A DNA stretch of 64,000 nt from Bolinopsis microptera (lineage: Eukaryota; Ctenophora; Tentaculata; Lobata; Bolinopsidae): positions 16,943,118 through 17,007,117 of the forward strand of contig NC_087078.1 of NCBI RefSeq assembly GCF_026151205.1, in the 5' to 3' direction. The notes under the pieces were generated by a model, which did no database searches, had not been told where the DNA came from, and saw only the letters and a list, made by a program, of their open reading frames with translations. Within the stretch, counting starts at the first letter, position 1. Every line of letters begins with the position of its first letter. The position numbers were made by a program, and so were the translations under genes. Positions 1 to 63,182 of the stretch are shown here, one piece after another.

Positions 1-3000
1 TTCATATTCGTTTCTGTGTTGCACCTCCTCAGAATGCACATTAGCAATAAAGTCTTCCGTTAGTCGCAGCTCTAAACCTTCGACATCGCTGATATCTTTT
101 GAGACCTCTGCATCTGTATTGATAGTTTGAATGATAAATTCAGGATCTAGTCTCTGCTCATGCTGGCCTTCCTGAAGATGCACCTCGGCAATAACGTCTT
201 GTGTTACTTCCGACTCTAAAACCCCACCCTTATTTGTACCTTTGTGAATCTCTGGATCTTTGTTGATGGTTTGAGAGATAAATTCGGGATCTTGTCTCTG
301 CTCATGCTGCCCTTCCTGAAGGTGCACCTCGGCAATATCGTCTTGTGTTACTTCCGACTCTAAAACCCCACCCTTATTTGTACCTTTGTGAATCTCTGGA
401 TCTTTGTTGATGGTTTGAGAGATAACTTCAGGATTTTGTCTTACAGATGGATCATGTACCTCAACTATCACGTCACCATCTGTTCTGTTCAACCAAGCAC
501 ATCCGTCCTCGCCTGTAACTATTGCTGAAGATGATTCTGCTCCTTTATCTCTAGCTTGGTTCTGGAGACAAGAAACTCGAATATCTAGATCTGCTGTTGT
601 TTTCGGTCCGTCAGCTTCTTTATGCTTTGTACCGAGGACACTACCAGTAGAGCATCCAGGTTCTCCTCTTCGAACTTCTATCTGCTCCATCTCGATAACT
701 TCAGGTTGAGCAGTACTGAAACGTGCGATGATAGTTTGGTGAATGGCTGAGTTGGCAATTCTGGCTGAGAGTGATCGAAAAGGTGCACTGAGTGATTCTG
801 TGACAAAATTGTCGTAAAGGAATGGGTTTATCACAGAATTTATTGGCAGGATGATCATTGAGAATATGCCGTACCATGGAGTTGCATCAAGAACTTCTAG
901 GGAGTGCAACACACAGATAACGATGAAAGGCACCCAACAACAGAAGTCAGTAGTGATGATGATCGTTATCCTTCTACTCATTTTTCGGTTTCGGTCACTA
1001 ATTTGTCGATTGTTCTGCGAATTAGTAAGACCTTTTGAGGACTCTCTGGAGACAATAGCTATCAGAATGTAGGATATTGAAATGAATAGGAAGCAGACAA
1101 AGTTTACGGCGAGTATTGCCCAAACGAAGTTCCTCTGGGGGTCGTTGTTGTCGGCAAAATACTTAAACAGGCACACACCGTCATTTCCGTAGAAATAAAG
1201 CTTTGTGACCGTATCGGTGTGGTCTGGATATCCTACATCATGAGAGAACATGCCACGGTACATCTTTAGGATCGTCTCCCAACTCATGTTTTTTCCTTTC
1301 ATCCGTCCATAGTAAGCTTCAAGGACTGCAAGGACTTCTTGTTTGTTTTGGGTTCCGATGAAAAGTTTAAGCTCATCAGCAAATTTGTATCCATTTACAA
1401 AAAAGTTTTCAAATGAACTAATTATTGGTGTGATAGCAATGGCTGCAGATGTCATGAAGATGCTTAGAACCCCTAGTCACTAGTGCAACCTTAAAAGATT
1501 TTACAATGTTGACTTCGCCTGGGACTCTGAGTGAACCCTGTATTCCATTTAGCCTAATGGTGCTCAATCCCGCCATAGCGAACAAAGATATCTGGGATCC
1601 TATGGTACTGACAACACCTATCGTGGAGCACTGAAAGCTAGTCATCCATTCGATTTGACTTTTACAGTAGTCTTTCTTGAAAATAACCGCGTCATATATT
1701 GCTATCACCAATAAATAGCAACCTACTAAGAAGTCTCCCAAAGATATCAAGATTATTAAGGATTTGTTAGCCAAGGCAACAGATGTTCTGCAGTGTTTTA
1801 GAGATCCTACGTTCTTTACCAATACGATCAGGTTTGCCACAACAGCTAGCCCCCCTATGATCAATGAGCTTACTTTCAGAGCTAAATTTTCCAGTATCTG
1901 TTTTGAGCACTCCAGATTACATTCGTCAGACATGTCGAAGCAATCGAATTTCCCATTACATGTTTTATCTTTTGTAATGATACGAGCAGAGTCGCATGTG
2001 AAACCATTGGTACATGCCAACTCATCCGATCGGTCGCCGCAATTATCAATCAAGTCACATACTTGAGAATAATTTATGCATGTGACATTGTTATCGCACA
2101 CGAAATATTCATTCGTGAATAAGTTTTCTCGTGATTTGGTGAAGAAAACCAGATATTTGTTGTTAGCAAGGGTTCCTATCCTATTAGGGTATTGATTGGG
2201 ACAGGCATCGTATTTTGGCAGGTTCTTCAGTGGGCAAGCTGAGTTTTTACATTTTTCTGTGCAGCTAGTAAAGACATATCGTTCCCCGAACATATGCTCA
2301 CAATTCTGTGTACTTTCAGGGAGATGCAACTCTGTTTTTGTGTCCACTCCAAAAAAGTGATGATCTGGAAATATGAAACGCTCTTGTGTGCAGTTATCCT
2401 TTTTGAGATTTTTGATACTCCTAAGACCTTTCATGCAAAATGATAGCTGCTTGACGAAACCATTTCCTTTGCTTGAGACTGAAGTGAAGATTGTCGAGGA
2501 ATGTTGAGATAATGAACACATTTGTTTCTCATTACCACATGTTTCAATTCCGTCACATAGATCGTTCAATTCGACGTAGCCAGGATCTCCTGAGGGGCAC
2601 AGGAGAACGTTATCGCACGTTTTATTGCTGGTTACTAATCTTCGGGACTTACCTTTTCCACATGTTGGCCAGATTTCCAGTTCATCAATACCATTTACAC
2701 AGTCCTCTATACCGTCGCGTATCCAGGTTAAAGGTAACGTCAATTCGCCTGCTTTAGCTTTTCCAACTTTTCTTTGGCAGGTGATTTCAGTTTGAATACG
2801 ACATATTGGGAGTGTTTCATCAGATCTGTCATTGCAATCCGGAAAGTTATCACACATCACGTGTTTGTGCATATTTTCACATGATTTTGAGATGTCCTGA
2901 CATTGACTTTCTAGGTGATCATCGCAAATTTGAACATTCTTGTCTTTGTAGCAAATCACATATTTAGAAATAGTTGACTTGTATCCATTTATAGTGCACG

Positions 3001-3795
3001 ATCCTCCCTCCCTAGCTTGGTCTGTACAATTTGTTTGATATTTCTTTAGATCTTCGTCTGTACAATACTTATTCTGATGTTGATTAATGCTTAGTACTCC
3101 GCACTTGGTGAAGTTGTGAACCGGTCTATTTAAAAGTTTACCACTCCATTGACCTTTACAATTATTCTTTTCTTCGTCAGTAGTAGTGCAGTTGAACTCA
3201 TCCTCTCCATCGTCACAAACATCATAACTACCACATATGAAACGAGGGGGTAAGTAATAGTTGAGATAAACAAGTTGTGTATAATCTGTGTATTTACAAT
3301 ACATTCCATAAGTCAGACCATTACAATATGCTTCATCCTCACATTTATTAGTTTCACATATATCATTACATATAAAATTAAGATCTACTTTTAGTCCACT
3401 GCGTAATGTTGTTTTATCTGCACAATTTTGTTCATCCATGTTATTTTCACAGTGTTGTTTACCATCACAAAGCCATCCTTCATATCTTAGATTTGTAAGT
3501 GAAATTATTCCAAATCTATCAAACGCTCTCCGACACAAATAATTCTCACATAATATATTATCACTACTACTTATCATGAAACCAGCCAACCTCGTGTCAC
3601 AAGCCTGATAGTAGTAGGGGTCCTCAGAGCATAACGATCGCTCAAAAATGGTATCACTATAAATACTAAATGGGGACACAATACTAGATGTATAGTAAAA
3701 CTCTTCCGTGTTGTGACACTTGAATTTCTCTTTGTGTTCTCCTGGACGAGGGCATTTGTACTTGAGGAACCCGCCATGTTCTTCAATGTAGCATA
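1..3795 (-). pseudogene. Receptor copy A, exon 4 (LDLa array + 7TM + tail), 3' end cut by window
   Basis: Large last exon of an SRCR-LDLa-7TM receptor, read from 3795 down through the window edge. It encodes LDLa-like modules (Cys-rich, DGxxxCxxxxDExxC type), the 7TM domain and tail repeats; only the last 20-odd codons of the tail are missing. Compared with copies B, C and F there is a 7-base insertion near 1474-1480 (CTAGTCACTAGTGC instead of CTAGTGC) in the loop before helix 4. It shifts the frame and ends the long frame at 1418. Below it the tail is still readable in another frame, with four tail repeats as in copy C. The exon's splice acceptor is separated from it by a 4.67 kb transposon. 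As read, copy A cannot make the full protein; the 7-base insertion is not a homopolymer change and is probably real. Confidence 0.8.
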
Positions 3796-3815
3796 CCTTA
3801 CTCGGGAATATTATA
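3796..3815 (+). repeat. Left terminal inverted repeat of the TA-target element
   Basis: Reads CCTTACTCGGGAATATTATA and is the exact reverse complement of 8444-8463. It is preceded by TA at 3794-3795, the left target-site duplicate. Confidence 0.9.
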
Positions 3816-8707: not shown

Positions 8708-8853
8708 CTTTGCATTGCAGCCAGAAATCTTTTCTGTGATCACAGTAGAAGGGTATTCTGAAGCTAGCAATACATTCCGAGATGTTCTTATCACCTTCGT
8801 AACACTCCACAGAAGGCATTACAGTAGGTACATCGTTCAAATCTAACCAACTC
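8708..8853 (-). CDS. Receptor copy A, exon 3 (second half of SRCR-like domain)
   Basis: 146-bp exon between acceptor TTACAG and donor GTACAT. It starts in phase 2 and ends in phase 1. It encodes SWLDLNDVP..., then VECYEGDKNISECIA ... YCDHRKDFWLQCK, matching the C-terminal part of an SRCR domain (Cys-x-G-x-E ... Leu/Ile-x-x-Cys ... Cys-x-His ... Cys). Spliced to exon 4 the junction codon is Val followed by CYIEEHGG. The model rests on the same splice signals in copies C and F; there is no transcript evidence. Confidence 0.75.
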
Positions 8854-8953: not shown

Positions 8954-9197
8954 TTGGAAACAAATTTGTAGCTCGGTCTACTCCCATAATCTCCCTCTTT
9001 AACAGTGTATCCAATGTTCTGACAGAATAGACGAACTGTCTGCGTGTTTAAATAATTACTGCCACATACTGTCCCTGTCCTTTCCTCCCCAGTTTGTTTG
9101 TTAACGATTGTAACATACAACAGTCCCTCATCTCCTGACGGAGTTACAGTTCCGTTATCATGTTGTCGAACTAGAGTCGCGTCCTTAAACTCCCAAT
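8954..9197 (-). CDS. Receptor copy A, exon 2 (first half of SRCR-like domain)
   Basis: 244-bp exon between acceptor TTTCAG and donor AAGTAAG. It enters in phase 1 and leaves in phase 2. It encodes WEFKDATLVRQHDNGTVTP, then GLLYVTIVNKQTGEERTGTV, CGSNYLNTQTVRLFCQNIGY. The G-x-V-C ... A/T-x-x-V-R-L-F-C-Q-x-I/L-G-Y pattern is the SRCR core (compare WGTVCDDGW ... VVCRQLGY). It is followed by KEGDYGSRPSYKFVSK. Exon 2 is the best conserved of the small exons across copies A, C, D and F. Confidence 0.78.
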
Positions 9198-9804: not shown

Positions 9805-10114
9805 CCTTTTCAGGAGAAGGAGTCAGACTATATTTGATGTAAGTCACTGGAGTAGAGGTCGATGACTGTTCTGTTCTGCGAGCAGATGTCACTGATTGAT
9901 CTGTTGGAGAGCTAGATGGCTGTTCTGTTCTGTGAGCAGTTGTCACTGATTGATCTGTTGGAGAGCTATATGACTGTTCTGTTCTGCGAGCAGATGTCAC
10001 TGATTGAACTGTTGGAGAGCTATATGACTGTTCTGTTCTGCGAGCAGATGTCACTGATTGATCTGTTGGAGAGCTAGAAACGAGTTGGAATAATATCAAT
10101 AGCAAAACGTACAT
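9805..10114 (-). CDS. Receptor copy A, exon 1 (signal peptide and 18-residue repeats)
   Basis: Starts at the ATG whose first base is 10114. It encodes a hydrophobic signal peptide MYVLLLILFQLVSS, then four copies of an 18-residue Ser/Thr-rich unit (PTDQSVTSARRTEQ core) and a short linker TPVTYIKYSLTPSPEK. The exon ends GAAAAGG|GTATAT in phase 1, so joining to exon 2 gives EKD-WEFK. The frame runs on into the intron hairpin, which is why an uncorrected ORF ends only at 9722. The repeats would form a mucin-like or stalk-like N-terminal segment outside the cell. Confidence 0.75.
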
Positions 10115-14490: not shown

Positions 14491-17400
14491 TTAAATCTCA
14501 GATTCTTTGTCCATGATTTGAGGGCAAATTTCAGATTCGTTTCTGTGTTGCACCTCCTCAGAATGCACATTAGCAATAACGTCTTCCGTTAGTCGCAGCT
14601 CTAAACCTTCGACATCGCTGATATCTTTTGGGACCTCTGCATCTGTATTGATAGTTTGAATGATAAATTCGGGATCTTGTCTCTGCTCATGCTGCCCTTC
14701 CTGAAGGTGCACCTCGGCAATAACGTCTTGTGTTAGTTCCGACTCTAAAACCCCACCCTTATTTGTACCTTTGTGAATCTCTGGATCTTTGATGATGGTT
14801 TGAGAGATAACTTCAGGCTTTTGTCTCTGCTGCACAGATGGATCATGTACCTCAACTATCACGTCACCATCTGTTCTGTTCAACCAAGCACATCCGTCCT
14901 CGCCTGTAACTATTGCTGAAGATGATTCTGCTCCTTTATCTCTAGCTTGGTTCTGAAGACAGGTAACTCGAATATCTAGATCTGCTGTTGTTTTCGGTCC
15001 GTCAGCTTCTTTATGCTTTGTACCGAGGACACTACCAGTAGTGCATCCAGGTTCTCCTCTTCGAACTTCTATCTGCTCCATCTCGATAACTTCAGGTTGA
15101 GCAGTACTGAGACGTGCGATGATAGTTTGGTGAATGGCTGAGTTGACAATTCTGGCTGAGAGTGATTGAAATAGTGCTTTGAATAATTCGGTGACAAAAT
15201 CGTCATAAAGGAATGGGTTTATCACAGAATTTATTGGCAGGATGATCATTGAGAATATGCCGTACCATGGAGTTGCATCAAGAACTTCTAGGGAGTGCAA
15301 CACACAGATAACGATGAAAGGCACCCAACAACAGAAGTCAGTAGTGATGATGATTGTTATCCTTCTACTAATTTTTCGGTTTCGGTCACTAATTTGTCGA
15401 TTGTTCTGCGAATTAGTAAGACCTTTTGAGGACTCTCTGGAGACAATAGCTATCAGAATGTAGGATATTGAAATGAATAGGAAGCAGACAAAGTTTACGG
15501 CGAGTATCGCCCAAACGAAGTTTCTCTGGGGGTCGTTGTTGTCGACAAAATACTTAAACAGGCAGACGCCGTCATTTCCGAAGAAATCAAGCTTTGTGAC
15601 CGTATCGGTGTGGTCTGGATATCCTACATCATGAGAGAACATGCCACGGTACATCTTTAGGATCGTCTCCCAACTCAGGTTTTTTCCTTTCATCCGTCCA
15701 TAGTAAGCTTCAAGGACTGCGAGGACTTCTTGTTTGTTTTGGGTTCCGATGAAAAGTTTAAGCTCATCAGCAAATTTGTATCCATTTACAAAAAAGTTCT
15801 CAAATGAACTAATTATTGGTGTAATAGCAATGGCTGCAGATGTCATGAAGATGCTAAGAACCCCTAGTGCAACCTTAAGAGATTTTACAATGTTGACTTC
15901 GCCTGGGACTCTGAGTGAACCCTGTATTCCATTTAGCCTAATGGTGCTCAATCCCGCCATAGCAAACAAAGATATCTGGGATCCTATGGTACTGACAACA
16001 CCTATCGTGGAGCACTGAAAGCTAGTCATCCATTCGATTTGACTTTTACAGTAGTCTTTCTTGAAAATAACCGCGTCATATATTACTATCACCAATAAAT
16101 AGCAACCTACTAAGAAGTCTCCCAAAGATATCAAGATTATTAAGGATTTGTTAGCCAAGGCAACAGATGTTCTGCAGTGTTTTAGAGATCCTACGTTCTT
16201 TACCATTACGATCAGGTTTGCCACAACAGCTAGCCCCCCTATGATCAATGAGCTTACTTTCAGAGCTACATTTTCCAGTATCTGTTTTGAGCACTCCAGA
16301 TTACATTCGTCAGACATGTCGAAGCAATCGAATTTCCCATTACATGTTTTATCTTTTGTAATGATACGAGCAGAGTCGCATGTGAAACCATTGGTACATG
16401 CCAACTCATCCGATCGGTCGCCGCAATTATCAATCAAGTCACATACTTGAGAATAATTTATGCATGTGACATTGTTATCGCACACGAAATATTCATTCGT
16501 GAATAAGTTTTCTCGTGATTTGGTGAAGAAAACCAGATATTTGTTGTTAGCAAGGGTTCCTATCCTATTAGGGTATTGATTGGGACAGGCATCGTATTTT
16601 GGCAGGTTCTTCAGTGGGCAAGCTGAGTTTTTACATTTTTCTGTGCAGCTAGTAAAGACATATTGTTCCCCGAACATATGCTCACAATTCTGTGTACTTT
16701 CAGGGAGATGCAACTCTGTTTTTGTGTCCACTCCAAAAAAGTGATGATCTGGAAAGATGAAACGCTCTTGTGTGCAGTTATCCTTTTTGAGATTTTTGAT
16801 ACTCCTAAGACCTTTCATGCAAAATGATAGCTGCTTGACGAAACCATTTCCTTTGCTTGAGACTGAAGTGAAGATTGTCGAGGAATGTTGGGATAATGAA
16901 CACATTTGTTTCTCATTACCACATGTTTCAATTCCGTCACATAGATCGTTCAATTCGACGTAGCCAGGATCTCCTGAGGGGCACAGGAGAACGTTTTCGC
17001 ACGTTTTATTGCTGGTTACTAATCTTCGGGACTTACCTTTTCCACATGTTGGCCAGATTTCCAGTTCATCAATACCATTTACACAGTCCTCTATACCGTC
17101 GCGTATCCAGGTTAAAGGTAACGTCAATTCGCCTGCTGCTGCTTTCCCAACTTTTCTTTGGCAGGTGATTTCAGTTTGATTACGACATATTGGAGTGTTT
17201 CATCAGATCTGTCATTGCAATCCGGAAAGTTATCACACATCACGTGTTTGTGCATATTTACACATGATTTTGAGATGTCTGACATTGACTTTCTAGGTGA
17301 TCATCGCAAATTTGAACATTCTTGTCTTTGTAGCAAATCACATATTTAGAAATAGTTGACTTGTATCCATTTATAGTGCACGATCCTCCTTCCCTAGCTT

Positions 17401-18177
17401 GGTCTGTACAATTTGTTTGATATTTCTTTAGATCTTCGTCTGTACAATATTCATTCTGATTTTGATTAATGCTTAGTACTCCGCACTTGGTGAAGTTGTG
17501 AACCGGTCTATTTAAAAGTTTACCACTCCATTGACCTTTACAATTATTCTTTTCTTGGTCAGTAGTAGTGCAGTTGAACTCATCCTCTCCATCATCACAA
17601 TCATCATAACTATCACATATGAAACGAGGGGGTATGTAAGAGTTGATATTAACAAGTTGTGTATAACCTGTGTATTTACAATACATTCCATAAGTCAGAC
17701 CATTACAATATGCTTCATCCTCACATTTATTAGTTTCACATATATCATTACATATAAAATTAAGATCTACTTTTAGTCCACTGCGTAATGTTGTTTTATC
17801 TGCACAATTTTGTTCATCCATGTTATTTTCACAGTGTTGTGTACCATCACAAAGCCATCCGTATTTTCTTAGCTGTGTAAGTGAAATTATATTTAATATT
17901 TCACCCGCTCTCCAACACAAATAATTCTCACATAATATATTATCACTACTACTTATCATGAAACCAGCCAACCTCGTGTCACAAGCCTGATAGTAGTAGG
18001 GGTCCTCAGAGCATAACGATCGCTCAAAAATGGTATCACTATAAATACTAAATGGGGACAAAATACTAGTTGTATAGTAAAACTCTTCCGTGTTGTGACA
18101 CTTGAACTTTTCTTCGTCTGTTCCTGGACGAGGGCATTTGTACTTGAGTAACCCGCCATGTTCTTCAATGTAGCATA
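14491..18177 (-). pseudogene. Receptor copy B, exon 4, frameshifted
   Basis: Acceptor CCAG then TATGCTAC at 18177; stop TAA at 14491-14493. Residues are close to copy A in the N-terminal part (SILSPFSIYSDTIFERSLC, KNNCKGQWSGKLLNRP). Two single-base losses break the frame: GGG to GG at about 17192 and CC to C at about 17280, leaving open parts 14491-17127 and 17258-18177. The lower part encodes the later LDLa modules, all seven helices and a tail with three repeats. Both losses are homopolymer changes and could be sequencing errors. However, the copy also lacks exons 1 and 2, so it has no signal peptide and is probably a real pseudogene. Confidence 0.78.
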
Positions 18178-18303
18178 CTGGTTCTGAATGATATTATATA
18201 AGCTAGCTACAATATTTCTCAACAATACATTTTGAAGCTGACACATTTGAGAGGGTGTGATACTAATATAATGACCGATACTGTTACACGGACTTTATTT
18301 TAA

Positions 18304-18419: not shown

Positions 18420-18571
18420 CTTTGCATTGCAGCCAGATATCATTTCTGTGATCAAAGTAGAAGGGTATTCTGAAGCTAGCAATACAGTCCGAGATGTTCT
18501 TATCACCTTCGTCACACTCCACAGAGTCAGAAGACATTACAGAAGGTACATCGTTCAAATCTAACCAACTC
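18420..18571 (-). pseudogene. Receptor copy B, exon 3 (second half of SRCR-like domain)
   Basis: 152-bp exon with the same acceptor, donor and phases as copies A and C; two extra codons (MSSDSVECDEG). A cysteine kept in the other copies is changed to Phe (YFDH instead of YCDH), which would break an SRCR disulfide. It has no exon 2 partner because the LINE starts about 95 bases upstream. Confidence 0.7.
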
Positions 18572-21697: not shown

Positions 21698-21708
21698 GGA
21701 CTGCACGT

Positions 21709-37069: not shown

Positions 37070-37215
37070 AAGGATGGTCTGGGTTTCTTTGCTTTCAATC
37101 AGAGATGGTGATGTATTATAAGCTGGTTGATCTGTTTGACATGATGTTTCGGTATGAGTCCCTCTGTCATTTATTTTGTGATCATGGGGGTTTGTAGTTT
37201 GGGTTTTTCTGTACT

Positions 37216-42638: not shown

Positions 42639-42904
42639 CTGGCCTGAATGATATTATATAACGCTAGCTACATATTTCTCAACAATACATTTGAAATCTG
42701 ACACCTTTTGAGAGGGTGTGATACTAATATAATGACCGATACTGTTAACACGGACTTTATTTGAACGGACTTTATTGAATGGACTGTATTTGAACAGACA
42801 TTAAAATCAAACAAAAACGCTGTAGGGTTCCTATGAAGGCTCCGTTCAAAAAAAGTCCGCTATTATGCCATGCATTATTTCCATGAATAATACTACGGTG
42901 TGTA

Positions 42905-43164: not shown

Positions 43165-43410
43165 CTAGAAACAACATTTGTAGCTCTTACTTTTACCCAA
43201 ACTCTCCCTTTTTAACAGGGTATCCAATGTTCTGACAGAATAGACGAACTGTCTGCGTGTTTAAATGATAACCGCCACATACTGTCCCTGTCCTCTCCTC
43301 TCCAGTTTGTTTGCTAACGATTGTAACATACAACAGCCCCTTATCTCCAGATGGAGCAACAGTTCCGTTATCATGTTGTCGAACTAGAGTCGCGTCCTTA
43401 AACTCCCAAT
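43165..43410 (-). pseudogene. Receptor copy D, exon 2 (3' end corrupted)
   Basis: From 43220 up to the acceptor at 43410 it is clean and encodes the SRCR core with TVCGGYHLNTQTVRLFC. The last 50 bases (43165-43215) carry several differences from all other copies and alter the length by a non-multiple of three. The quality change falls inside the exon. Confidence 0.6.
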
Positions 43411-43996: not shown

Positions 43997-44012
43997 GTCC
44001 GATAAGATATAC

Positions 44013-44214
44013 CCTTTTCAGGAGAAGGAGTCAGACTATATTTGATGTAAGTCACTGAAGTAAAGGTCGATGGCTGTTCTGTTCTGCGAGCAGATGTCAC
44101 TGATTGATCTGTTGGAGAGCTAGATGGCTGTTCTGTTCTGCGAGCAGATGTCACTGATTGATCTGTTGAAGAGCTAGAAACGAGTTGGAATGATATTAAC
44201 AGCAAAACGTACAT
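44013..44214 (-). CDS. Receptor copy D, exon 1 (signal peptide, two repeats)
   Basis: Clean 202-bp exon from ATG at 44214 to donor GTATAT (exon end 44013, phase 1). It encodes MYVLLLISFQLVSS, two 18-residue units and the linker TSVTYIKYSLTPSPEK. Same structure as copy A exon 1 with half the repeats. Confidence 0.75.
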
Positions 44215-45975: not shown

Positions 45976-48900
45976 TTTTTACAGTTGATACTTGTTACTT
46001 TAAAAATAATCGAAGTTTTAAAACCAAATTAAAATTTAGAATAAAATTGTTCTGCAACAAACATAAACTTTAGTCCCCTCATATCTTTAAAAAATGGGAA
46101 AAAACCCATTAACAAAGAAATGTTTCAAAAATTATGAACTCAAAATCCCAGACGCGTTTAAACGTTTAAAATTTTAAATTTTACTGGAAATTTGATATAA
46201 ATCTTAATCTGAAAAACTACCCCGAGCCAGGACCCCAAACCCCCAATGGGAATCCCCCCGTTTTTGGCAACGGGTTTTCGTTTCACTTGCTTTGTTGTTT
46301 TAACACATTTTTCAAAAAACCCCCTTAAACATGTTTTACTTGATTTTTTGGCCCATTTTAAAACATTGAATTAGAATAATTTGGATAAAGGTAAACCTGC
46401 TAAACGATTTTCCGGGAGTCAAAAAAAAAAAAGGCAAAAAAAAAAGGGGGTGAAGGACGACTTTCGGCTTACCCCCTGGACACAAACCCCCCCCTTTAAA
46501 TAATCTTTTGTAAATACTTTTAAACCCTAGTATACGGTTTGAAAATTTTTTAATAAAAAAAAAAGGGGATTCGAGGCTTTTTTAGAAATTTTAAAATTAG
46601 AAACGAGCCGAAAATAAATTTCTTTTATTATTACTAGCGGGAACCCCCCAAACCTTTAAAAACGGTGTAAAGGGTTTTTGGGGGCCCGGGAAATTTTCCT
46701 CCCCAAAGTCTCCCAGGAAAATTTTTTAAAAACCCTTTTTTTAATTCGCGTTTTTGACCCCATTTTGGGGTTTCCTTTTTTTTGGGAACAAAATTTTCTT
46801 TTTTCCTTTTGGCCAAATTTTCGTTTTTTTAAAGCAAAATTGGGGCCATTAAAGCATTTGAAAAAGTTAAAAAAGTTTCAGTTTTTAATCTTTACGGTTT
46901 TTGGGGAAACCCTTTTTAAAAGTTGACCCGGGTTTGGCAAAAAAGGGTGGGGAAAAATTAAATAAAATATATAGAAATATAATTCCTCGCTTTAAAATTT
47001 TGTAAGTTTTATTTAGTGCCATTGTTTTTCCCGCAGAAAACCACCATTTTAAAAAAAATTCCACTGAATTTCCTCCGCCCGTGTTTTTTTCCCATTTTTA
47101 AAAACTACCCGATTTAAAAAAGTAATCAGAATAAGGGTGGGGAAAAAGAAAAAAAACAAAAAAAAACTTATTTTGACAGCACGGGATGGGGCGGCCCCAA
47201 ATTCCCCGGGGGACCCATTTGGGAAAAAATTTGGGAAATTAAAACCAAATCAGGAAAGGGAAAAAGGGCCATCATTAACAAAAAAAAAACCGGATTTTTT
47301 CAAGAGTGGGGAAAAAGGATTGAAAAAATAAAAAAATAAACTAATTTAATTCATACAAACAAAATATTATACAAAAGCTTTCACGATATTTAAACTTTTT
47401 TCTATGAATTCAAACAACGTACAAAATACTACTTGGAAATAAACCCTTTAAACAATTACGAGGTTTGAAAAACATTGACTTAAAATAAAAAACAAAAATT
47501 TTAATTTTTGGGCCCCTTTAAAGCGTTCCTAAAATAAATTTCAAAAAAAATTTCTTTAACATCATTTTATCTTTAATAAAAAATTTTGAAATCAAAAATC
47601 TCAATAGTTAAATAAAATCGTCTACAAAATAAAATAAAGAAAACAAATAAAAAAATTATTAGAATTAAAATTAAATAATTTTGTTACAAATTTTTAAACG
47701 GTTTTCCCATAAATTCCCATTGAGTTTTTCCCGAAGGGTTTTTGACATCAGAACCAATCTATTGGGAATTTGAAAAACGCATTTAAACTTCATGAAGTAC
47801 CCCATGAAACAGTGAACAGAAAATAAAAATCACCGTAAAAAGTCAAATTCCGCAAACCCCTATAACTTTAAATACAATTACACCTTGCTCAACCCTTTTT
47901 CCCCGATTTTAAGTTTGTTTTTGGGAAAATTCGGATTTTTGGAAAACCCCCCGGGGCAAATTAAAAGGGAGTGATTTGCATACGCATATCTTTTTGGGTA
48001 CCCCTTCAAAAATAGATTTGATATTTATTTGAGAGTTGCCCAATGGGACTTTGGAACTCTCAAATTCCCAATTTTTTGCTGAACCGTCTTTTTTCTTTTT
48101 CCCCCCTTTTAAGCCCAAAAAAGGGGTTTCACTGCTTAATTTCCATACATTATTATTTTTAAACATTTATTAAATTAATATAAAAACAAAAATGTAAAGC
48201 TATAAAAAAAACCCCAAATAAAATATCCAAAAAAGGGTTCGAAACTATACCACGAGGAAAACTCTGTTTAAGTTTCTTAAACCCAAAATTTCTTTGTCCA
48301 TAAATTTGGGGGGCAAAAATTCAGATTTTTTTCCCGGTTTTTCCCCCTCAAATTTCCCTTTGGGGCAAAACGTTTTTCCGTTATCCCAGCTCAAAACCCC
48401 ATCGACAAGCTGATATCTTTTGGTCCTCTGCATCGTTTTTGATAGTTTAAAATGAAAAAATTCGGATTTTTGCTCGCTCATGCCCCCCCTTCCTAAAGGT
48501 GCCCCCTCGGCAATAACGCTTGTTTTAATTTTCCGGGCTCAAAAAATCCCCCCCCTTATTTTTTCCTTTTGGTGAATCTCTGGACCTTTGTGAGGGGTTT
48601 GGGAAAAATAATTTCGGGATTTGTCTCTGCTGCACGGGTATCATGTCCCCTCAACAACACTCCCCCTCTTTCTTTTTCAACCCAGCACACCCCGTCCTCG
48701 CCTGTAAAAATTGCGAAGATGTTCCCTGCTTTTTTAACCAAATTTTTTTCCCAGAAGACAGGTAACTCGAATACTAATCGCGTTGTTTTTGGGGGTCCGT
48801 CAGCCCTTTAGGTTTGGAAAAACCCGGGAACAAACCGGGTGGCAGGGCCGGTTTCTCCCTTCGTTCCCTTCAACGGCTCCTCCGAAACCCCTTTTAGCAA

Positions 48901-51900
48901 CGGGAAAACGGCTTGATGGGGTTTGGTAAATGGCGGATTTGGGACAATTCTGGTGAGATTTTTAAAAAATAGTGCGGGAAATTGGGAAAAAATTTCGCAA
49001 AAGGGAAGGGGGTTAATAACAAATTTTTTGGGCGGGATACTTTGGGAAAAATCCGGGCCCAAAGGATTTTGAAATCAAAAACCTTCAAGGATTTGAAACA
49101 CCCGATAAGGGTTAAAAGGGCACCCAAAAAACAAATCATTTAAAAGTTTAATTGTTAGCCTTTCAACCTTTTGGGTTTTGGGCCCTTTTTGGGGCGAGGG
49201 TTTCCCAATTAGAATTTTTTGGGATTTACTCGGTAGACAAGCAAATTCAGAATGGGGGAATTGAAAAAAAATGGGTAATTTTTCAAATTTTACGGGGGAA
49301 AATCCCCCAAAACGAATTTTTTTCGGGGGGCCCTTTTTGTCGACAAAATAACGTAAACACAGACCCCGCCCATTTCCTTTAAAATCAACCCTTTTGGACC
49401 TTTATCGGGGCATTTCCAACTTCATGGAAACATCCCAAACGGTACTTTTTTGGGATCGCCCCCAACTCGGGGTTTTTTTCCTTTAAATTCCTTTCCATAG
49501 AATTTTAAAAGGGGCCGGGCCGGGGGACTTCTTGTTTGTTTTGGGGTTCCCCGGATGAAAATTTTAAAGGGCCAAAATCACCCAATTTTTTGTATCCTTT
49601 CCAAAACTTTAAAAAAGAACTAATTATGGTTAAAGAAAAGGCGGCGGGGTCCTGAAGATGCAAAGAACCCTATTGAAACCCTTTAAAGATTTTTTTAAAC
49701 CAAGGGGGACTTAAACCCGGGCGGGGGGGGAACCCTTTCCTTTTTAGCCTAAGGGTTTTCCCCAATCCCCCAAATAGCAAACCCAAATTTATCTTGGGGT
49801 TCCTAGTATTTTGGAAAAAACACCCTTCGTTGACATTTGAAAGCCAGTCATTTTTTCCCGTTTTTGATTTTTACATAGTTTTTTCTTAAAAAAACCCGGG
49901 CCCATATTTTAAAAAACCCCAAAAAAAATTAGCAACCTACTAAGAAGTCCCCCCCAAAAACAAGAAAATTAAGGATTTTTTTACCCCAGGCAACGATTTT
50001 CGCAGTTTTTTTAAAAGTTTCCTAAAATTTTTTAAACCAAAAGACAGGTTTGCCCAACAGCTACCCCCCAATGATCAATGAGCATTTTTCAGACAAAATT
50101 TTTCCCATACTTTTTTGAGCACTCCAGATTACATTGGGTCAACTTGTCAACAATAAAAATTTCCCATTTTTTTTTTATCTTTTGTAATGATACGAAACCC
50201 GATCCATGTAAAACCTTTTGGGACATGCCAACTCACCGAAACGGGCGCCGCAATTACAACAAGTCCCCAACTTTAGAAAAAAATTTGCATGTACATTATT
50301 ATCGCACCAAAAATTAAGCGTTAAATTTTTACTTTTTTTGGGGGAAAAAAAAACCGATATTTTTTTGGTTTTCAATTTTTCCCCCACCTATTTGGGGGAT
50401 TTATTGGGGCACCGTTTTTGGGAGGTTTTTTCAGTGGGGAAAGGATTTTCCCTTTTTCTTGCAGCTAGTAAAGACATATTTTTCCCCCCCCATATGCTCC
50501 AATTTTGTGGGACTTTTTAGGGGGATGCAACTCGTTTTCCGGGGTTTCCCCCTCCAAAAAAATTTTACTGGAAAGATGGAAAAACTTTGGGGGGGCAATG
50601 GGTCCTTTTTGAGAAATTTTTTTACTCCCCAAGACCTTTTTTAAAGCAAAATGACAGCGCTTGAAAAAAAGCCAATTTTCCCTTGGGTTGAGACTTGGGG
50701 TGAAATTTTTCCCAGAATGTTTTTGGGAAAAAAACACATTTTTTCTCATTTCCACATGTTTTAATCCGTCGCAAAGATCGTTCAAATTTGACGTAGCCAG
50801 AACCCTGATGGGCCCAGGAGAAACAATTTTGCACGTTGTATTGCATTTTTCTAACTTGGGGACTTACCCTTTTTCCCGGGTTTGGGCCTTTTTTCCCGTT
50901 CATCAATACCCCTTTTCAATTCCCCTATACCGTTTGCGAAACCAGGGTTTAAAATTTCTCAATTTTTGCCTCCTGCTTTTTTCCCAAATTTTCTTTGGGG
51001 AGGTGAAAATTTTAGTTTTAAACGACATATTTAAGGGTTTTTAAACAGAAACGTCATTGCAAAACCCGGAAAAATTTAACACACAAACAAAGTGTTTTGC
51101 CCTATTTAAAACATGATTTTGAGAAATTTCCCACCCTTGACTTTCTAGGGGATCATTTGCAAATTTGAACATTCTTGGCTTCGGCAAACAAAATTTTTAA
51201 AAAATTTTTAAAGGAAACCATTTATAGTGCACGAAACCTCCTCCCCGCTTTTTTCTGAAAAATTTTTTTTTTTGAATTTCTTCCCGATCCTCGCTACACA
51301 AACTTTTTCTTTATGTTGTTTAAACTTGGGGACTCCACCTTGGGGGAAGTTTTTGAAAAAGGGCTAAACAAGAACAATTTTAAAGTAAAGGTGGGCTTCA
51401 TTTCCTTTGTTTCTCAGTATTTTGGGATTGAACTCAACCTCCCCTTTAAAACAATCATTATCACTAACACATATTTTAAAGAGGGCTATGTAATAGATTT
51501 AGGGCTAGTTTATAACTTTGGGGTTTACAAACAAGCCATAAATCCCATTACAATAAACCCTTTGTCCCAAAAATAAATAGTTTTCACATATATCATACAT
51601 ATAAAACAGGGGCTACGCAGCCCCCTGCGTTAAAAGTTGTTTTATCCCACAATTTTGTTCATCCATGTTATTCCACAGTTTTGGGAAAACCTTTTTTAAA
51701 AAACCGTATTTTTTTTAGCTTTGTAAGTGAAATTAAAAACAAATTTTCACCCAGCTCCGCCAAATAATTCTCACATAAAATTTAAAAACACTAATTCTTA
51801 TCAGGGAAAACCCGCCCCCTCGTGTCACAAGCCCGATAGTATAAAGGGGCCCCCAGGCCCAAACAATCGTTTAAAAAGGCCCTAAAAAATTTATGGAAAA

Positions 51901-54235
51901 AAAACTCTTTCCCTGTTGTGACCTTTAACCTCTTTTTCGTCTTTCCCGGGGAGGGTTTTTTAAATTAAGAACCCCCATGGGTTCCCTTTTAAATTTTTAT
52001 ACCGGGGTTTTGGGGAAAGAAATTTTATAACTACTGCAAAAAATTTTTCGACATCCCTTTTGAAAACTGACACCCTTTAAGGGGGGTTTTAATAAAAAAG
52101 GGCCCGGGTACAAGGGTTTCACGGGCTTGGGCTTGGACGGAAATTTTTTAACGGACTTTATTTGAACGGACTATTTTGGGAAACCATTTGGGTTTTTTAA
52201 GGGTCCGTTTAAATAAACCCCCGAGATTATGACATGATTTTTTTTCATGATAAAACTTTCGATTACCTTTGCATTGGGAAGGCCCAAAACATCCCGTGGT
52301 CACAATTAAAGAAGAGCTTTGTGAATCCAGCCCAACAACCAGATGTTCCCTTTTCACCTTTTCACACTCCACCCCCCAAAAATTCAATTGTTAAAATTTG
52401 TTCCAAAACAAAAAAACTCCGAACATTGGGTTAAAAAATCAAACAACTTGGGGTCAATTCAAAATCAAAACGTTCAACTTTCCCCCAAATTTCGGTAATC
52501 ATAAATTTAAAAAACAAAACCTTAACCTTTGGGAAAAAAATTTGTAGCTTCCCCAAAACCCAAAATTTTCCCCCTTTAAAAATATCCCCGGGGTTCAGAA
52601 AGAAAAAACGTCTGCGTGGTTTTAAAAGATTTTCCGCCGGGCCCATCGTCCCCCCGTCCTCTCCTCTCCATTTTGTTGTTAAAAGATTGAAAAATACAAC
52701 ATTCCCCCATCCCCCGGGCGGGGTTTTCATGAGTTCCCTTAACTTTTTTGTCGAAATAGAGTCCTCCTTTAAAACCCCCTTAAACCTTCATGATTATCGA
52801 AATTTTCCAATTAAAGTCTAAACAAAATGAAAGGTTTTATGGGGTTTCAACGAGGGTAGGGGTTTTTAATTTCTTTAATTTTGGGGAAAATTTTTAAAAA
52901 AAAACAAAACCCCCAAAGAAAAAGGGTTTTTTCCCAAAAAAATCGGAAAAAAGATGGAAGGTTTTCCATGATTTTTTCATGACACCTTAACCCCCGGGTT
53001 TCGGGGGTTTGGTTGGGCCCAAAACGGAATTTTATCATTGGGCAATTCCCAAAAAAGAATGGTTTTTCCTTTCCCTTGTGGGAACAATCACTATGGGAAT
53101 TTTAAAATTAAAAACGACAAAATTGGGGCCAAATTCAAACATTCTTAAAAAAACTGCAATCATAAAACATAAAACATTCCCACTAAAATAAACCTTTTCG
53201 GGGCTTAAATTTTAAACCGGGCATTAAAGGGAAAAACATAATTTTTTTAAAGGCATTAAAAAAACGCTCGAAAGGGATTTTAGGTCATGTTTTTGTTTTT
53301 AACCCCAATTTTAGAATTTAAAAAAAAAGGGGCATTAAAAAAAACACAAAATTTTGGGCCTTCATGTCCCCTTTTAATTTCCCCCAAAAAAGGCCAAAAA
53401 GGTTACCAATTTTCATGAAAAAAGGGGGTATTTTTAATAGGCCCATGGGGTTGGTTTCCAATGCTGGGTTTGGGGCATTGGGGGGACGGTCAAAAAATTT
53501 AATTGGGTTTTCCTCCTTTTTGGTGAGAACACATAAGGGAATAAAAGATTTATTTGGGTTACAAACTGAGGCCTTTTTTTTTAAAAATTTTAAAAACGGG
53601 AAACCAAAAATCATAAACAAACCCTTTTCCCGGGCGTTTTTAAACTGCTTACCCGGAAAAGGGCATAATTTTTTTTTAAAGGAAAATTAAAAAAAACCTC
53701 GAAGGGATTCGTATCAGTATTTTTTTTTTTACCCACCTTTCCAAAAATTTTTTGAAAGGACATTTAAAATGAAAAGCCTCCAGCGTCCAATAATTCCGCT
53801 CAAAAAAATCCGGAAAGGGAAACCAAAAAGGAAAATATACTATATGGGATTTTATAGAAGTCACGGGGTAGAGGGCGATGGCTTTCTGTTCGCAAGCAAA
53901 ATGCACTGATTGAAATTTTTTTGAGACTAAAACGAATTTTGGGAAAAATATCAAAGCAAAACGTACTTTCCCGAATTCAAACGCCTTTTCAAACCCAACC
54001 TTAAAGATTGTGAAAATAACCAAAGCCCGCCCCACAATTTTTGGGGGTCCCATAAAACGACACAAGCCCAAATTTTCCCCAATGGTTTAAAAAGGGCCTT
54101 TTTTTTAAAACGGGTTGGGATAAGGTATTACAACGGGTTTTGCTGCCCCCAAAGAATCCGGAAACCCCCTCTTTCAAAGCTTTTTAATAAGCTTTTTTTT
54201 TTATTTGGGCCCGGGTACCGCTTTTAAATTCCTAT
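45380..54235. other. 8.9-kb stretch of corrupted sequence covering most of unit E
   Basis: The array unit is recognisable in order (MFS exon, spacer, receptor exons 4-1, 5' flank) but is riddled with inflated homopolymer runs (CCCC, GGGG, TTTTT, AAAAA) and small losses. Coding, intronic and spacer DNA are equally affected, and both borders are abrupt. This pattern fits an unpolished or mis-built consensus better than mutation. Open frames in this stretch should not be taken as genes. Confidence 0.8.
48270..53975 (-). pseudogene. Receptor copy E, exons 4 to 1 (unreadable frame)
   Basis: By alignment to copies C and F: exon 4 about 48270-52005, exon 3 about 52265-52400, exon 2 about 52530-52790, exon 1 about 53850-53975 with at most one VNTR unit. 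Words such as CTTTCTAGGGGATCATTTGC and GCAGCTAGTAAAGACATATT confirm identity. No frame can be followed for more than a few dozen codons. Whether the underlying gene is intact cannot be told. Confidence 0.6.
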
Positions 54236-55627: not shown

Positions 55628-55649
55628 CTGAGGTGTATTTTAGAACCAA

Positions 55650-57600: not shown

Positions 57601-60600
57601 TTAAATCTCAGATTCTTTGTCATGATTTGAGGGCAAATTTCAGATTCGTTTCTGTGTTGCACCTCCTCAGAATGCACATTAGCAATAACGTCTTCCGTTA
57701 GTCGCAGCTCTAAACCTTCGACATCGCTGATATCTTTTGGGACCTCTGCATCTGTATTGATAGTTTGAATGATAAATTCGGGATCTTGTCTCTGCTCATG
57801 CTGCCCTTCCTGAAGGTGCACCTCGGCAATAACGTCTTGTGTTAGTTTCGACTCTAAAACCCCACCCTTATTTGTACCTTTGTGAATCTCTGGATCTTTG
57901 ATGATGGTTTGAGAGATAACTTCAGGATTTTGTCTCTGCTGCACAGGTGGATCATGTACCTCAACTATCACGTCACCATCTGTTCTGTTCAACCAAGCAC
58001 ATCCGTCCTCGCCTGTAACGATTGCTGAAGAAGATTCTGCTCCTTTATCTTTAGCTTGGTTCTGAAGACCGGTAACTCGAATATCTAGATCTGCTGTTGT
58101 TTTTGGTCCGTCAGCTTCTGTATGCTTTGTACAGAGGACACTACCAGTAGTGCATCCGGGTTCTCCTCTTCGAGCTTCTATCTGCTCTATCTCGATAACT
58201 TCAGATTGAGCAGTACTGAGACGTGCGATGATAGTTTGGTGAATGGCTGAGTTGACAATTCTGGCTGAGAGTGATTGAAATAGTGCTTTGAATAATTCGT
58301 TGACAAAATCGTCATAAAGGAATGGGTTTATCACAGAATTTATTGGCAGGATGATCATTGAGAATATGCCGTACCATGGAGTTGCATCAAGAACTTCTAG
58401 GAGTGCAACACACAGATAACGATGAAAGGCACCCAACAACAGAAGTCAGTAGTGATGATGATTGTTATCCTTCTACTCATTTTTCGGTTTCGGTCACTAA
58501 TTTGTCGATTGTTCTGCGAATTAGTAAGACCTTTTGAGGACTCTCTGGAGACAATAGCTATCAGAATGTAGGATATTGAAATGAATAGGAAGCAAACAAA
58601 GTTTACGGCGAGTATCGCCCAAACGAAGTTTCTCTGGGGGTCGTTGTTGTCGACAAAATACTTAAACAGGCAGACGCCGTCATTTCCGTAGAAATCAAGC
58701 TTTGTGACCGTATCGGTGTGGTCTGGATATCCTACATCATGGGAGAACATGCCGCGGTACATCTTTAGGATCGTCTCCCAACTCAGGTTTTTTCCTTTCA
58801 TCCGTCCATAGTAAGCTTCAAGGACTGCGAGGACTTCTTGTTTGTTTTGGGTTCCGATGAAAAGTTTAAGCTCATCAGCAAATTTGTATCCATTTACAAA
58901 AAAGTTCTCAAATGAACTAATTATTGGTGTAATAGCAATGGCTGCAGATGTCATGAAGATGCTAAGAACCCCAAGTGCAACCTTAAAAGATTTTACAATG
59001 TTGACTTCACCTGGGACTCTGAGTGAACCCTGTATTCCGTTTAGCCTAATGGTGCTCAATCCCGCCATAGCAAACAAAGATATCTGGGATCCTATGGTAC
59101 TGACAACACCTATCGTGGAGCACTGAAAGCTAGTCATCCATTCGATTTGACTTTTACAGTAGTCTTTCTTGAAAATAACCGCGTCATATATTACTATTAC
59201 CAATAAATAGCAACCTACTAAGAAATCTCCCAAAGATATCAAGATTATTAAGGATTTGTTAGCCAAGGCAACAGATGTTCTGCAGTGTTTTAGAGATCCT
59301 ACGTTCTTTACCAATACGATCAGGTTTGCCACAACAGCTAGCCCCCCTATAATCAATGAGCTTACTTTCAGAGCTAAATTTTCCAGTATCTGTTTTGAGC
59401 ACTCCAGATTACATTCGTCAGACATGTCGAAGCAATCGAATTTCCCATTACAAGTTTTATCTTTTGTAATGATACGAGCAGAGTCGCACGTGAAACCATT
59501 GGTACATGCAAACTCATCCGATCGGTCGCCGCAATTATCAATCAAGTCACATACTTGAGAATAATTTATGCATGTGACATTATTATCGCACACGAAATAT
59601 TTATTCGTGAATAAGTTTTCACGTGATTTGGTGAAGAAAACCAGATATTTGTTGTTAGCAAGGGTTCCTATCCTATTAGGGTATTGATTGGGACAGGCAT
59701 CGTATTTTGGCAGGTTCTTCAGTGGGCAAGCTGAGTTTTTACATTTTTCTGTGCAGCTAGTAAAGACATATTGTTCCCCGAACATATGCTCACAATTCTG
59801 TGTACTTTCAGGGAGATGCAACTCTGTTTTCGTGTCCACTCCAAAAAAATGATCATCTGGAAAGATGAAAAGCTTTTGTGTGCAGTGATCCTTTTTGAGA
59901 TTTTTGATACTCCTAAGACCTTTTATGCAAAATGACAGCTGCTTGACAAAGCCATTTCCTTTGCTTGAGACTGAAGTGAAGATTGTCGAGGAATGTTGGG
60001 ATAATGAACACATTTGTTTCTCATTACCACATGTTTCAAGTCCGTCACATAGATCGTTCAATTCGACGTAGCCAGGATCTCCTGAGGGGCACAGGAGAAC
60101 ATTTTCGCACGTTTTATTGCTGGTTACTAATCTTCGGGACTTACCTTTTCCACATGTTGGCCAGATTTCCAGTTCATCAATACCATTTACACAGTCCTCT
60201 ATACCGTCGCGTATCCAGGTTAAAGGTAACGTCAATTCGCCTGCTGCTGCTTTTCCAACTTTTCTTTGGCAGGTGATTTCAGTTTGAATACGACATATTG
60301 GGTGTGTTTCATCAGATCTGTCATTGCAATCCGGAAAGTTATCACACATCACGTGTTTGTGCATATTTACACATGATTTTGAGATGTCCTGACATTGACT
60401 TTCTAGGTGATCATCGCAAATTTGAACATTCTTGTCTTTGTAGCAAATCACATATTTAGAAATAGTTGACTTGTATCCATTTATAGTGCACGATCCTCCC
60501 TCCCTAGCTTGGTCTGTACAATTTGTTTGATATTTCTTTAGATCCTCGTCTGCACAATACCTATTCTGATCTTGATCAATGCTTAGTACTCCGCACTTGG

Positions 60601-61278
60601 TGAAGTTGTGGATCGGTCTATCATGAACATTTAATATATTCCAATATAAGCGTGGTCTACAGGTGCTCTTTGTTTGCTCAGTAGTTGTGCAGTTGAACTC
60701 ATCCTCTCTATCATCACAATCATTACGACTATTACATATGTAATCAGGAGGTCGGTAATAGTTGAGATTTAGTTTATAAAATGTATTTTTACAATAAATT
60801 CCATAAGTCAGACCATTACAATTCGCTTCGTCCTCACAGGTACTAGTTTCACATATATCATTACATATAAAACGAGGATCTACTGCTAGTCCACTGCGTA
60901 ATGTTGTTTTATCTGCACAATTTTGTTCATCCATATTATCCTCACAGTGTTTTGTACCATCACAAAGATATCCGTATTCTCTTAGCTTTGTAAGTGAAAT
61001 TATTCCAAATGTATAATCACTCACGCTCCGACACAAATAATTCTCACATAATATATTATCATTACTACTTATCATGAAACCAGCCATCCTCGTGTCGCAA
61101 GCCTGATAGTAGTAGGGGTCCTCAGAGCATAACGATTGCTGAAAAACGGTATCACTATAAATACTATATGTATTATAGTAAAACTCTTCCGTGTTGTGAC
61201 ACTTGAACTTCTCTTTGTCTTCTCCTGGGCGTGGGCATTTGTACTTGAGGAATCCGCCATGTTCTTCAATGTAGCATA
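57601..61278 (-). pseudogene. Receptor copy F, exon 4, two single-base losses
   Basis: Acceptor CCAG then TATGCTAC at 61278; consensus stop TAA at 57601-57603. Open from 61278 down to about 58400, where GGG is GG (TCTAGGAGTG) and the frame shifts between helices 6 and 7. A second loss (CC to C near 57620) changes the last residues. Otherwise every LDLa module and helix is intact, with a three-repeat tail. Its outer region is of the C type with unique residues (STCRPRLYWNILNVHDRP). Both defects are homopolymer shortenings, so the gene may be intact in the animal. Confidence 0.82.
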
Positions 61279-61520
61279 CTGGTTCTGAATGATATTATAT
61301 AAGCTAGCTACAATATTTCTCAACAACACATTTTGAGGCTGACACCCTTGAGAGGGCGTAATACTAATGATACTGTTACACGGACTTTGACTTGGACGGA
61401 CTTCATTTGAACGGACATTAAAACGCAATATATAGGGTTCCTATAGGGCTCCTTTCAAATATAAGTATAACGTCCGATAATTATGCCATGATTATTTTCA
61501 TGAATAATACTACGATGTAC

Positions 61521-61669
61521 CTTTGCATTGCAGCCAAATATCATTTCTGTGATCACAGTCGGAGGGTGTTCTGAGTCTAAATGCTCTACAGTCCGAGATG
61601 TTCTTATCACCTTCGTCACACTCCATAAAAAGCATTATAATAGGTACATCGTTCAAATCTAACCAACTC
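61521..61669 (-). CDS. Receptor copy F, exon 3 (second half of SRCR-like domain)
   Basis: 149-bp exon, same splice sites and phases as copy C. It encodes SWLDLNDVPIIMLFMECDEG, DKNISDCRAFRLRTPSDCDH and RNDIWLQC, with the SRCR cysteines kept. Confidence 0.75.
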
Positions 61670-61791: not shown

Positions 61792-62050
61792 TTTGAAACA
61801 AATTTGTAGCTCGGTCTACTCCCATAATCTCCCTCTTTAACAGGGTATCCAATGTTCTGACAGAATAGACGAACTGTCTGTGCGTTTAAATACATTTCAA
61901 AATAACAGCCATGTACTGTCCCTGTCTTCTCCTCTCCAGTTTGTTTGCCAACGAGTGTAACATACAACAGTCCCACTCCCTCATCTCCGGACGGAGTTAC
62001 AGTTCCGTTATCATGTTGTCGAACTAGAGTCGCGTCCTTAAACTCCCAAT
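61792..62050 (-). CDS. Receptor copy F, exon 2 (first half of SRCR-like domain)
   Basis: 259-bp exon, 15 bases longer than in A and C, still phase 1 in and phase 2 out. It encodes GLLYVTLVGKQTGEEKTGTV, HGCYFEMYLNAQTVRLFCQN and IGYPVKEGDYGSRPSYK. The cysteine after GTV is replaced by His, with a new Cys two residues on and four extra residues, an in-frame change in the SRCR core. Confidence 0.75.
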
Positions 62051-62457: not shown

Positions 62458-63017
62458 CGTTACTCGGCAGTATCGAGATAGCCCGACCACTGTCCGCGGA
62501 CAACTGTCCACGGTCAACTGTCCACGGACAACTGTCCGCGGACACCTGTCTACCAGATCATATAACTGTATAATAACAGTATCCCCTGAATCAAGCAACA
62601 GGTGTTTGTGAATAGTTGATTGGTTACCAGATCATATGAATGGTATGTATAATTAATATTATAATTAATTGTAGCGTAGTAAATTACTGGATCAAACTAT
62701 TGATTACGATTCAAATGTGGTCTCTCGGATATAATTAGAAGTACAAGAATATTAGAACAGACAGCATCCTCTCTGGACAGAAGCTCGCTCTCAAGACCTT
62801 CATACAACTGCTGTTCTGTTTGAGTATAAAAGGACTAGCTGGCATTGCGGTATCACAGATGACTGCAAACCCTTGTCCTCTTGGTGAACCCTGCTTGATT
62901 CAGGGGATACTGTTATTATGCAGTAATATGATCTGGTAGACAGCTGTTCGTGGACAGTTGTCCGCGGACAGTTGTCCGCGGACAGTGGTCGGGCTATCTC
63001 GATACTGCCCGTTACTC
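62458..63017. mobile_element. Fold-back element with 8-bp target duplication in copy F intron 1
   Basis: Element 62466-63009, flanked by perfect CGTTACTC duplicates (62458-62465, 63010-63017); copy D has one CGTTACTC at this point. Long inverted ends start GGCAGTATCGAGATAGCCCG and extend about 140 bases, with several direct copies of the palindromic GTCCGCGGACA word and a second paired block around ATAACAGTATCCCCTGAATC. No coding region. The 8-bp target duplication fits hAT-like or P-like transposases acting in trans. Confidence 0.88.
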
Positions 63018-63116
63018 AACCGGACATTGCGTGAACGGACATGATTTTTAACGGACATTAAAATGAACGCTCGAAGGCATTCATGATCAGTATTTAATTT
63101 AACAACTTATCAGAAT

Positions 63117-63182
63117 TTATTTAAACAGACCTGTTGGCGAGCTAGAAACGAGTTGGAATGATATTAACAGCAAAACGTACAT
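63117..63182 (-). pseudogene. Receptor copy F, exon 1 remnant (signal peptide only)
   Basis: ATG at 63182 gives MYVLLLISFQLVSSSPTGLFK and a stop. The repeat units, linker and donor are missing: a deletion joins the first unit to the distal part of the intron hairpin (AATTTATTTAAACAGACCTG). Without exon 1 this copy has no route to the rest of its protein unless another start exon exists. Confidence 0.7.

Follow-up and report, generated by a model that had tools for sequence, protein, structure and literature searches.

An array of receptor genes in Bolinopsis microptera

The 64-kb stretch of the Bolinopsis microptera genome analysed here (C7:16943118-17007117; hereafter, the window) holds six copies, A to F, of a candidate receptor gene that combines an SRCR domain, LDLa modules and a seven-transmembrane (7TM) domain. 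All six lie head-to-tail, as a sequence-only reading of this DNA had described, on the minus strand of the window. The best reading of the intact design begins with a signal peptide and a short stalk of Ser/Thr repeats, followed by a single group-A-like SRCR domain split over two coding exons, a cysteine-rich ectodomain in which four or five LDLa modules can be recognized, a 7TM domain and a repeat-built cytoplasmic tail. The array continues past both ends of the window. The low-side flank, read for 80 kb, contains copy Z, and the high-side flank, read for 120 kb, contains copies G, H, I and J and one more that is represented by pieces K and L. The exon-4 parts of K and L are complementary, so we counted them as one copy and rejected their treatment as two. 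In all, the array comprises at least 12 copies across ~185 kb.

The claim that the six copies in the window encode the full receptor proved too strong, because each of A to F carries a lesion or unreadable sequence (Table 1). The exon-4 acceptor of copy A is lost, and its 7-bp insertion falls in the 7TM domain. Copy B lacks exons 1 and 2 and has two 1-bp deletions, while copy F retains all exons with two 1-bp deletions and an exon 1 reduced to the signal peptide. No phase-1 exon-1 donor is visible in copy C, whose exon 4 is open over 1,277 residues. Gap openings in exons 2-4 aligned to copy C reach 31 per kb in copy D and 60 per kb in copy E, compared with 0 to 12 per kb in the other copies (alignments longer than 150 bases; the value is 16 in an F piece of 122 bases). 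The region at ~45.4-54 kb resembles uncorrected reads, with inflated homopolymers, and copy E is unreadable there; this region ends in a long six-base repeat (~54.3-55.0 kb). Single-base changes in the copies may be sequencing errors. Outside the window, copy G has all four exons open, and GT-AG splicing gives a 1,445-residue open frame; copy H is open as far as a stop in its tail. Lesions in the flanks comprise insertions in Z and truncation of J.

Table 1 Exons of receptor copies A to F, in window coordinates.
Feature	Position	Strand	Remarks
Copy A exon 4 (LDLa, 7TM, tail)	1..3796	-	continues ~40 bases outside the window; 7-bp insertion at 1484; acceptor lost
Copy A exon 3 (SRCR second half)	8708..8853	-	
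Copy A exon 2 (SRCR first half)	8954..9197	-	
Copy A exon 1 (signal peptide and four Ser/Thr-rich repeats of 18 aa)	9805..10114	-	donor GG/GTATAT
Copy B exon 4	14491..18183	-	1-bp deletions at 17279 and 17194
Copy B exon 3	18420..18571	-	exons 1 and 2 not found; LINE upstream
Copy C exon 4	24163..27986	-	open; 1277-aa stop-to-stop frame; LDLa, 7TM at ~residues 642-991, tail repeats
Copy C exon 3 (SRCR second half)	28258..28406	-	
Copy C exon 2 (SRCR first half)	28529..28772	-	
Copy C exon 1 (signal peptide and 11 repeats)	29711..30349	-	3' end including donor replaced by other sequence
Copy D exon 4, approximate	38932..42645	-	many indels
Copy D exon 2 (SRCR first half), noisy	43165..43410	-	
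Copy D exon 1 with donor	44013..44214	-	
Copy E exon 4 remains	48310..51979	-	low-quality sequence
Copy F exon 4	57601..61284	-	1-bp deletions at 58401 and 57621
Copy F exon 3 (SRCR second half)	61521..61669	-	
Copy F exon 2 (SRCR first half)	61792..62050	-	complete SRCR scores under the Pfam cut-off
Copy F exon 1 (signal peptide without repeats)	63131..63182	-	donor ACAG/GTCTG, phase 1

Domains of the receptor

The sequence-only reading had placed an SRCR-like domain in exons 2 and 3 and had named a profile search of these exons, beforehand, as a check that could overturn it. Joined exons 2 and 3 of copy C matched Pfam PF00530 (E = 2.8e-6, 28.0 bits; cut-off 26.1), and the match straddles the exon 2-3 joint. 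All seven copies A, C, F, G, H, I and Z gave a Pfam SRCR match, which was above the cut-off in five, and the claim thus survives. SRCR domains of group A have six cysteines and are coded by two exons. In the array, the domain is split across exons 2 and 3 and has six cysteines in A, C, G, I and Z; one of the six is displaced in F, and the first and fifth are lost together in H. These two cysteines are disulfide partners in SRCR folds, and the loops near them are highly variable among the copies. A profile built from six copies (A, C, G, H, I and Z) matched two SRCR domains, at 6.6e-12 and 2.5e-13, in a C4 protein of 434 residues that has a hydrophobic C-terminus and a Pfam SRCR match of 3.2e-25. 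A single-sequence search of PDB with the SRCR returned three weak, unrelated matches only.

Exon 4 of copy C matched both Pfam PF00057 Ldl_recept_a (6.8e-12, in four stretches) and 7tm_1 (4e-13, class A), each past its cut-off, confirming the LDLa-like modules and class A 7TM domain that had been read by eye. The number of modules fared less well, since Pfam backs four or five LDLa modules rather than about seven. When nine ectodomain pieces were scanned, five gave an LDLa match, two of them past the cut-off. Two extra cysteine stretches, LDLa-like by eye, gave no Ldl_recept_a match, which leaves a count of seven unsupported. In spliced copy G, a scan of 1,252 of the 1,445 residues found SRCR (21.9 bits, below the cut-off), LDLa and 7tm_1 in one model. 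The signal peptide in exon 1 (judged by eye), the stalk of 18-residue Ser/Thr repeats and the repeat-built tail were read directly, in agreement with the earlier description.

A five-member profile of the 7TM domain retrieved 18 PDB sequences at E ≤ 1e-8, of which 17 are named LGR-family receptors and the remaining one (8w1z) has a generic G-protein-coupled receptor (GPCR) name only. RXFP1 was the top match (2.4e-20), followed by FSHR, LHCGR, TSHR and LGR4. These profile matches suggest that the 7TM domain groups with the LGR/RXFP branch of class A. An arginine stands at the DRY place (our own assignment) in all eight aligned members, with no acidic residue preceding it. No leucine-rich repeat (LRR) family was found in copy C exon 4 (to E 0.1), the nine ectodomain pieces (to E 1) or copy G (to E 0.1), and the same Pfam scans of copy C exon 4 and copy G found neither GPS nor 7tm_2, the features that would point to the Adhesion class.

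Probable joining of the SRCR exons to the receptor exon

From the exon phases and splice sites, we infer that exons 1-4 are joined in RNA. Joints 2-3 (phase 2) and 3-4 (phase 1) share their splice sites and phases among C, F, G, H, I and Z. In A, D, F, G and H, the phase at the end of exon 1 is 1. Seven copies (B, C, F, G, H, I and Z) have just 215-271 bases between exons 3 and 4, and by eye exon 4 lacks a signal peptide of its own. Two of the three junctions proposed earlier, EKD-WEFK and K-SWLDL (R-SWLDL in G), are phase-compatible GT-AG joints in copy G. The third is ambiguous, because two candidate acceptors six bases apart give either CK-VCYIEE, as in the earlier proposal, or CK-DPVCYIEE, as in the model used here. 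In copy I, exon 1 is fused in frame to exon 2 with no intron, apparently via a CAG repeat (~109640-109283 on the scale of the window). Furthermore, in a family member at C5:7.57 Mb that is 36% identical, SRCR exons precede its own LDLa-7TM exon. Profile searches of this member found a complete SRCR and the first half of another; the remaining half of the latter and the splice phases were read by eye.

Selection across the receptor

We calculated ratios of nonsynonymous to synonymous divergence (dN/dS) by the Nei-Gojobori method for all pairs of six copies (A, B, C, F, G and H), with bootstrapping over codons. The ratio was 0.93 (0.65-1.34) in the distal ectodomain (exon 4 residues 17-300), 0.31 (0.13-0.68) in residues 301-470, 0.30 (0.11-0.67) in residues 471-635, 0.19 (0.11-0.28) in the 7TM domain (residues 636-1005) and 0.85 (0.50-1.37) in the tail. 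The 7TM domain is under purifying selection and the distal ectodomain is not. Nevertheless, as the loops change the cysteines are kept: 52 of the 54 ectodomain cysteine columns are unbroken across the six copies. Of the other two, G has lost one, and the second is an alignment gap with a cysteine present nearby. Changes fall mostly in the loops between cysteines and are accompanied by in-frame indels.

A wider receptor family

A genome search with exon 4 gave at least 44 matches at at least 36 places (35 if two on C2 represent one gene). This count covers the best 36 of 732 candidates and is a lower bound, with D, E, I, J, K/L and the C5 member outside it. Identity to copy C is 82-100% at fourteen of the 36 places and 49-62% at the other 22; 17 of these 22 diverged places have no stop within the match. 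No relatives were found in viral contigs or phages. When the SRCR exons served as the query, all 132 candidates were scored and 100 matches resulted. Exon-2 matches of at least 63 residues and at least 71% identity numbered 17 (10 in the array, four on C2 and one each at C7:14.67, C9:14.71 and C10:15.61). Among the matches listed, no exon 4 follows the SRCR match at C2:9247689 or lies near a 41-residue SRCR piece (80% identity) at C4:12.53. Two other genes carry two-exon SRCRs beside a different, extracellular-looking domain, with no receptor exon within the 3 kb read.

None of the 22 diverged places has an SRCR match from this search within 100 kb, although diverged SRCRs can escape the query, as C9:13.82 may show. 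We read 3 to 3.4 kb of upstream DNA at five of these places. Three of the five (on C12, C13 and C3) are SRCR-less, with a phase-1 signal-peptide exon joining exon 4 across introns of 622, 152 and 177 bases; the diverged C6 locus shows no clear first exon in the upstream DNA read. Upstream of the member at C9:13.82 Mb lies a kringle half-domain (piece 1207-1605; Pfam 2.1e-07, 31.6 bits, below the cut-off of 34.3). This member (C9:13822314, 49% identical) also has a weak SRCR-like first half that matched a widened profile at E 0.0018. Neither two hand-joined versions nor the first-half open reading frame matched any Pfam family, and the first profile found nothing either, so a clear SRCR there is unsupported. 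Because a signal-peptide exon ending in phase 1 leads straight to exon 4 in the SRCR-less members, the SRCR is best seen as an optional phase 1-1 module, present in some subfamilies between the signal-peptide exon and the LDLa-7TM exon. With these phases, the frame survives with or without it.

Other sequences in the array

A weak match to an MFS transporter, below the Pfam cut-off, is repeated between receptor copies (31387-32052, 45280-45942 and 55011-55688), and a 439-residue open frame containing this piece lies in the flank (82825-84141 on the window scale). The recurrence of this piece indicates that the duplicated unit exceeds the receptor alone. An intronless class A GPCR open frame lies between copies A and B (11159-12214, plus strand), and a second copy of it, 96% identical, adjoins copy J in the flank. 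Retrotransposons of the LINE type with long open reverse transcriptases occupy 5728-7563, 18695-22671 and 32374-37213, all on the minus strand; one occupies the expected site of copy B exons 1-2 and another sits in the last intron of copy A. Polinton/Maverick-like open frames, recognized by eye only, lie inside exon 4 of copy Z (~-15000 to -5600 on the window scale).

A proposed role in surface recognition

To our knowledge, little is known of pattern-recognition receptors that signal directly via G proteins. We think it probable, if only just, that this locus is a tandem array of modular recognition receptors with an LGR/RXFP-type 7TM domain wired to G proteins. The variable SRCR and the membrane-distal LDLa loops would bind surface molecules that vary, whether foreign or self. 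Binding would be transmitted by the LDLa modules near the membrane, which are conserved, and by the long second extracellular loop, and the 7TM domain, with an arginine but no preceding acidic residue at the DRY place, would signal via a G protein. We infer both the recognition role and the G-protein coupling from sequence features. The selection pattern and the precedent of the snail SudRes2 cluster (PMC12297450) make the surface-recognition role that had been suggested earlier likelier, if still presumptive.

Several observations weigh against this interpretation. No copy in the window is intact as read, every one being lesioned or unreadable, and copy G in the flank has NQxxY replacing NPxxY and one LDLa cysteine changed to serine. 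The SRCRs of copies F and H fall below the Pfam cut-off, H being without two of the six cysteines, and so does the first SRCR of the C5 member (24.1 bits). Copy C exon 4 is also matched, narrowly above the cut-off, by the nematode chemoreceptor family Srv (22.5 bits; cut-off 21). The distal dN/dS near 1 could reflect relaxed constraint. Synonymous divergence is itself higher in the distal ectodomain, so older divergence or less gene conversion there contributes to the pattern. The copies compared are not independent and include the frameshifted A, B and F, and a dN/dS of 5.4 at residues 85-100 comes from a stretch chosen after viewing the alignment.

A broader version of the recognition reading is possible but tentative. 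It would make the family a GPCR innate-recognition repertoire, in which dozens of LRR-less LGR-type receptors read foreign or self/non-self surfaces directly, N-terminal phase-1 exon modules are exchanged (none, one SRCR, more than one SRCR, possibly a kringle) and the distal loops diversify under selection.

It is rather unlikely that the copies are mostly dead duplicates whose distal variation is relaxed constraint, a view compatible with a working family elsewhere. The lesions in A, B, C and F, the insertions in Z, the truncation of J and the retrotransposons within the array all fit it, but the low dN/dS of the 7TM domain, the cysteines kept amid changing loops, the open frames of G (complete) and H (to its tail stop) and the stop-free matches at most of the diverged places do not. 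Similarly doubtful is a chemosensory function in detecting environmental cues. The family is a large and partly tandem set of GPCRs, copy C passes the Srv cut-off, and a starfish GRL101-like transcript is reported to be higher in sensory tentacles than in tube feet (PMC6267866). Long disulfide-rich SRCR/LDLa ectodomains would instead suit large ligands, and expressed sequence tags matching the Ciona LDLRR-GPCRs are reported chiefly from blood and haemocytes (PMC2396169).

Distinctly less probable are hormone-type receptors for peptides of the insulin/relaxin superfamily, with the array as a by-product of duplication. The 7TM domain is closest to those of RXFP1 and the glycoprotein-hormone receptors, and GRL101 has been proposed as a receptor for insulin-like growth factor (PMC8286064); against this, LRRs were not found in the sequences scanned, and a family of at least 35-36 places with an unconstrained distal ectodomain is unlike a hormone receptor. 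Finally, SRCR-like sequences are plentiful in the genome, but it is very improbable that the SRCR exons form a gene of their own or adjoin the receptor by chance, given that their order, orientation and splice phases are identical in six copies, the exon 3-4 gap is short, exon 4 has no visible signal peptide and the 36%-identical C5 member has the same arrangement.

Comparison with known receptors

By its 7TM domain, we file the array receptor as one that would work like an LRR-less LGR-type receptor with an SRCR added. Like RXFP1 and RXFP2, it has LDLa in its ectodomain, and RXFP1 is the closest solved 7TM domain by sequence; unlike it, these two are hormone receptors with one LDLa and LRRs. 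It shares multiple LDLa modules and an LGR-type 7TM domain with GRL101 of Lymnaea and the type C2 LGRs. GRL101 differs in having six LRRs, and the available text on it mentions no SRCR (PMC8286064). The array receptors thus show the 7TM domain and LDLa of type C LGRs but not, in our scans, the LRRs. Receptors with several LDLa modules are also described in cnidarians (PMC4079206).

LDLa plus 7TM receptors had been said to carry LRRs, which is incomplete. Ciona intestinalis has 14 LDLRR-GPCRs that lack LRRs and join an RXFP-like 7TM domain to LDL-A modules, either one or a tandem row of 2-10 (PMC2396169), and a constant pairing with LRRs was rejected on these grounds. The array receptors have every one of these features and share the lineage-specific expansion. 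They differ in their SRCR, which the passages on the Ciona receptors do not mention (PMC2396169), and the likeness is one of architecture. SRCR-bearing GPCRs are described from amphioxus (PMC2246102) and the sponge Amphimedon (PMC4302439), but those belong to the Adhesion class, whereas the receptors here are of the rhodopsin class. The combination of SRCR, LDLa and 7TM domain that the sequence-only reading had called unfamiliar is supported domain by domain. In searches of one open-access library, we found no description of SRCR, LDLa and a rhodopsin-class 7TM domain together.

SudRes2 of Biomphalaria sudanica combines a C-type lectin, LDLa, LRRs and an LGR-type 7TM domain, in a region linked to schistosome resistance (PMC12297450). 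Its GRL101-like cluster resembles the array in grouping LGR-type GPCRs that carry LDLa and an added recognition domain, within a region that is variable; it differs in that the added domain is a C-type lectin and in having LRRs (PMC12297450). What is new here is a genome-wide family of at least 35-36 places, an SRCR that behaves as a phase 1-1 module, an SRCR-bearing member only 36% identical, and an LGR/RXFP-like 7TM domain in receptors in which no LRR was found. With one signalling unit kept, outer domains added by exon phase and variation placed in the outer loops, such a family would let GPCR-based recognition be tested directly in an invertebrate, beside the SudRes2 receptors of the snail.

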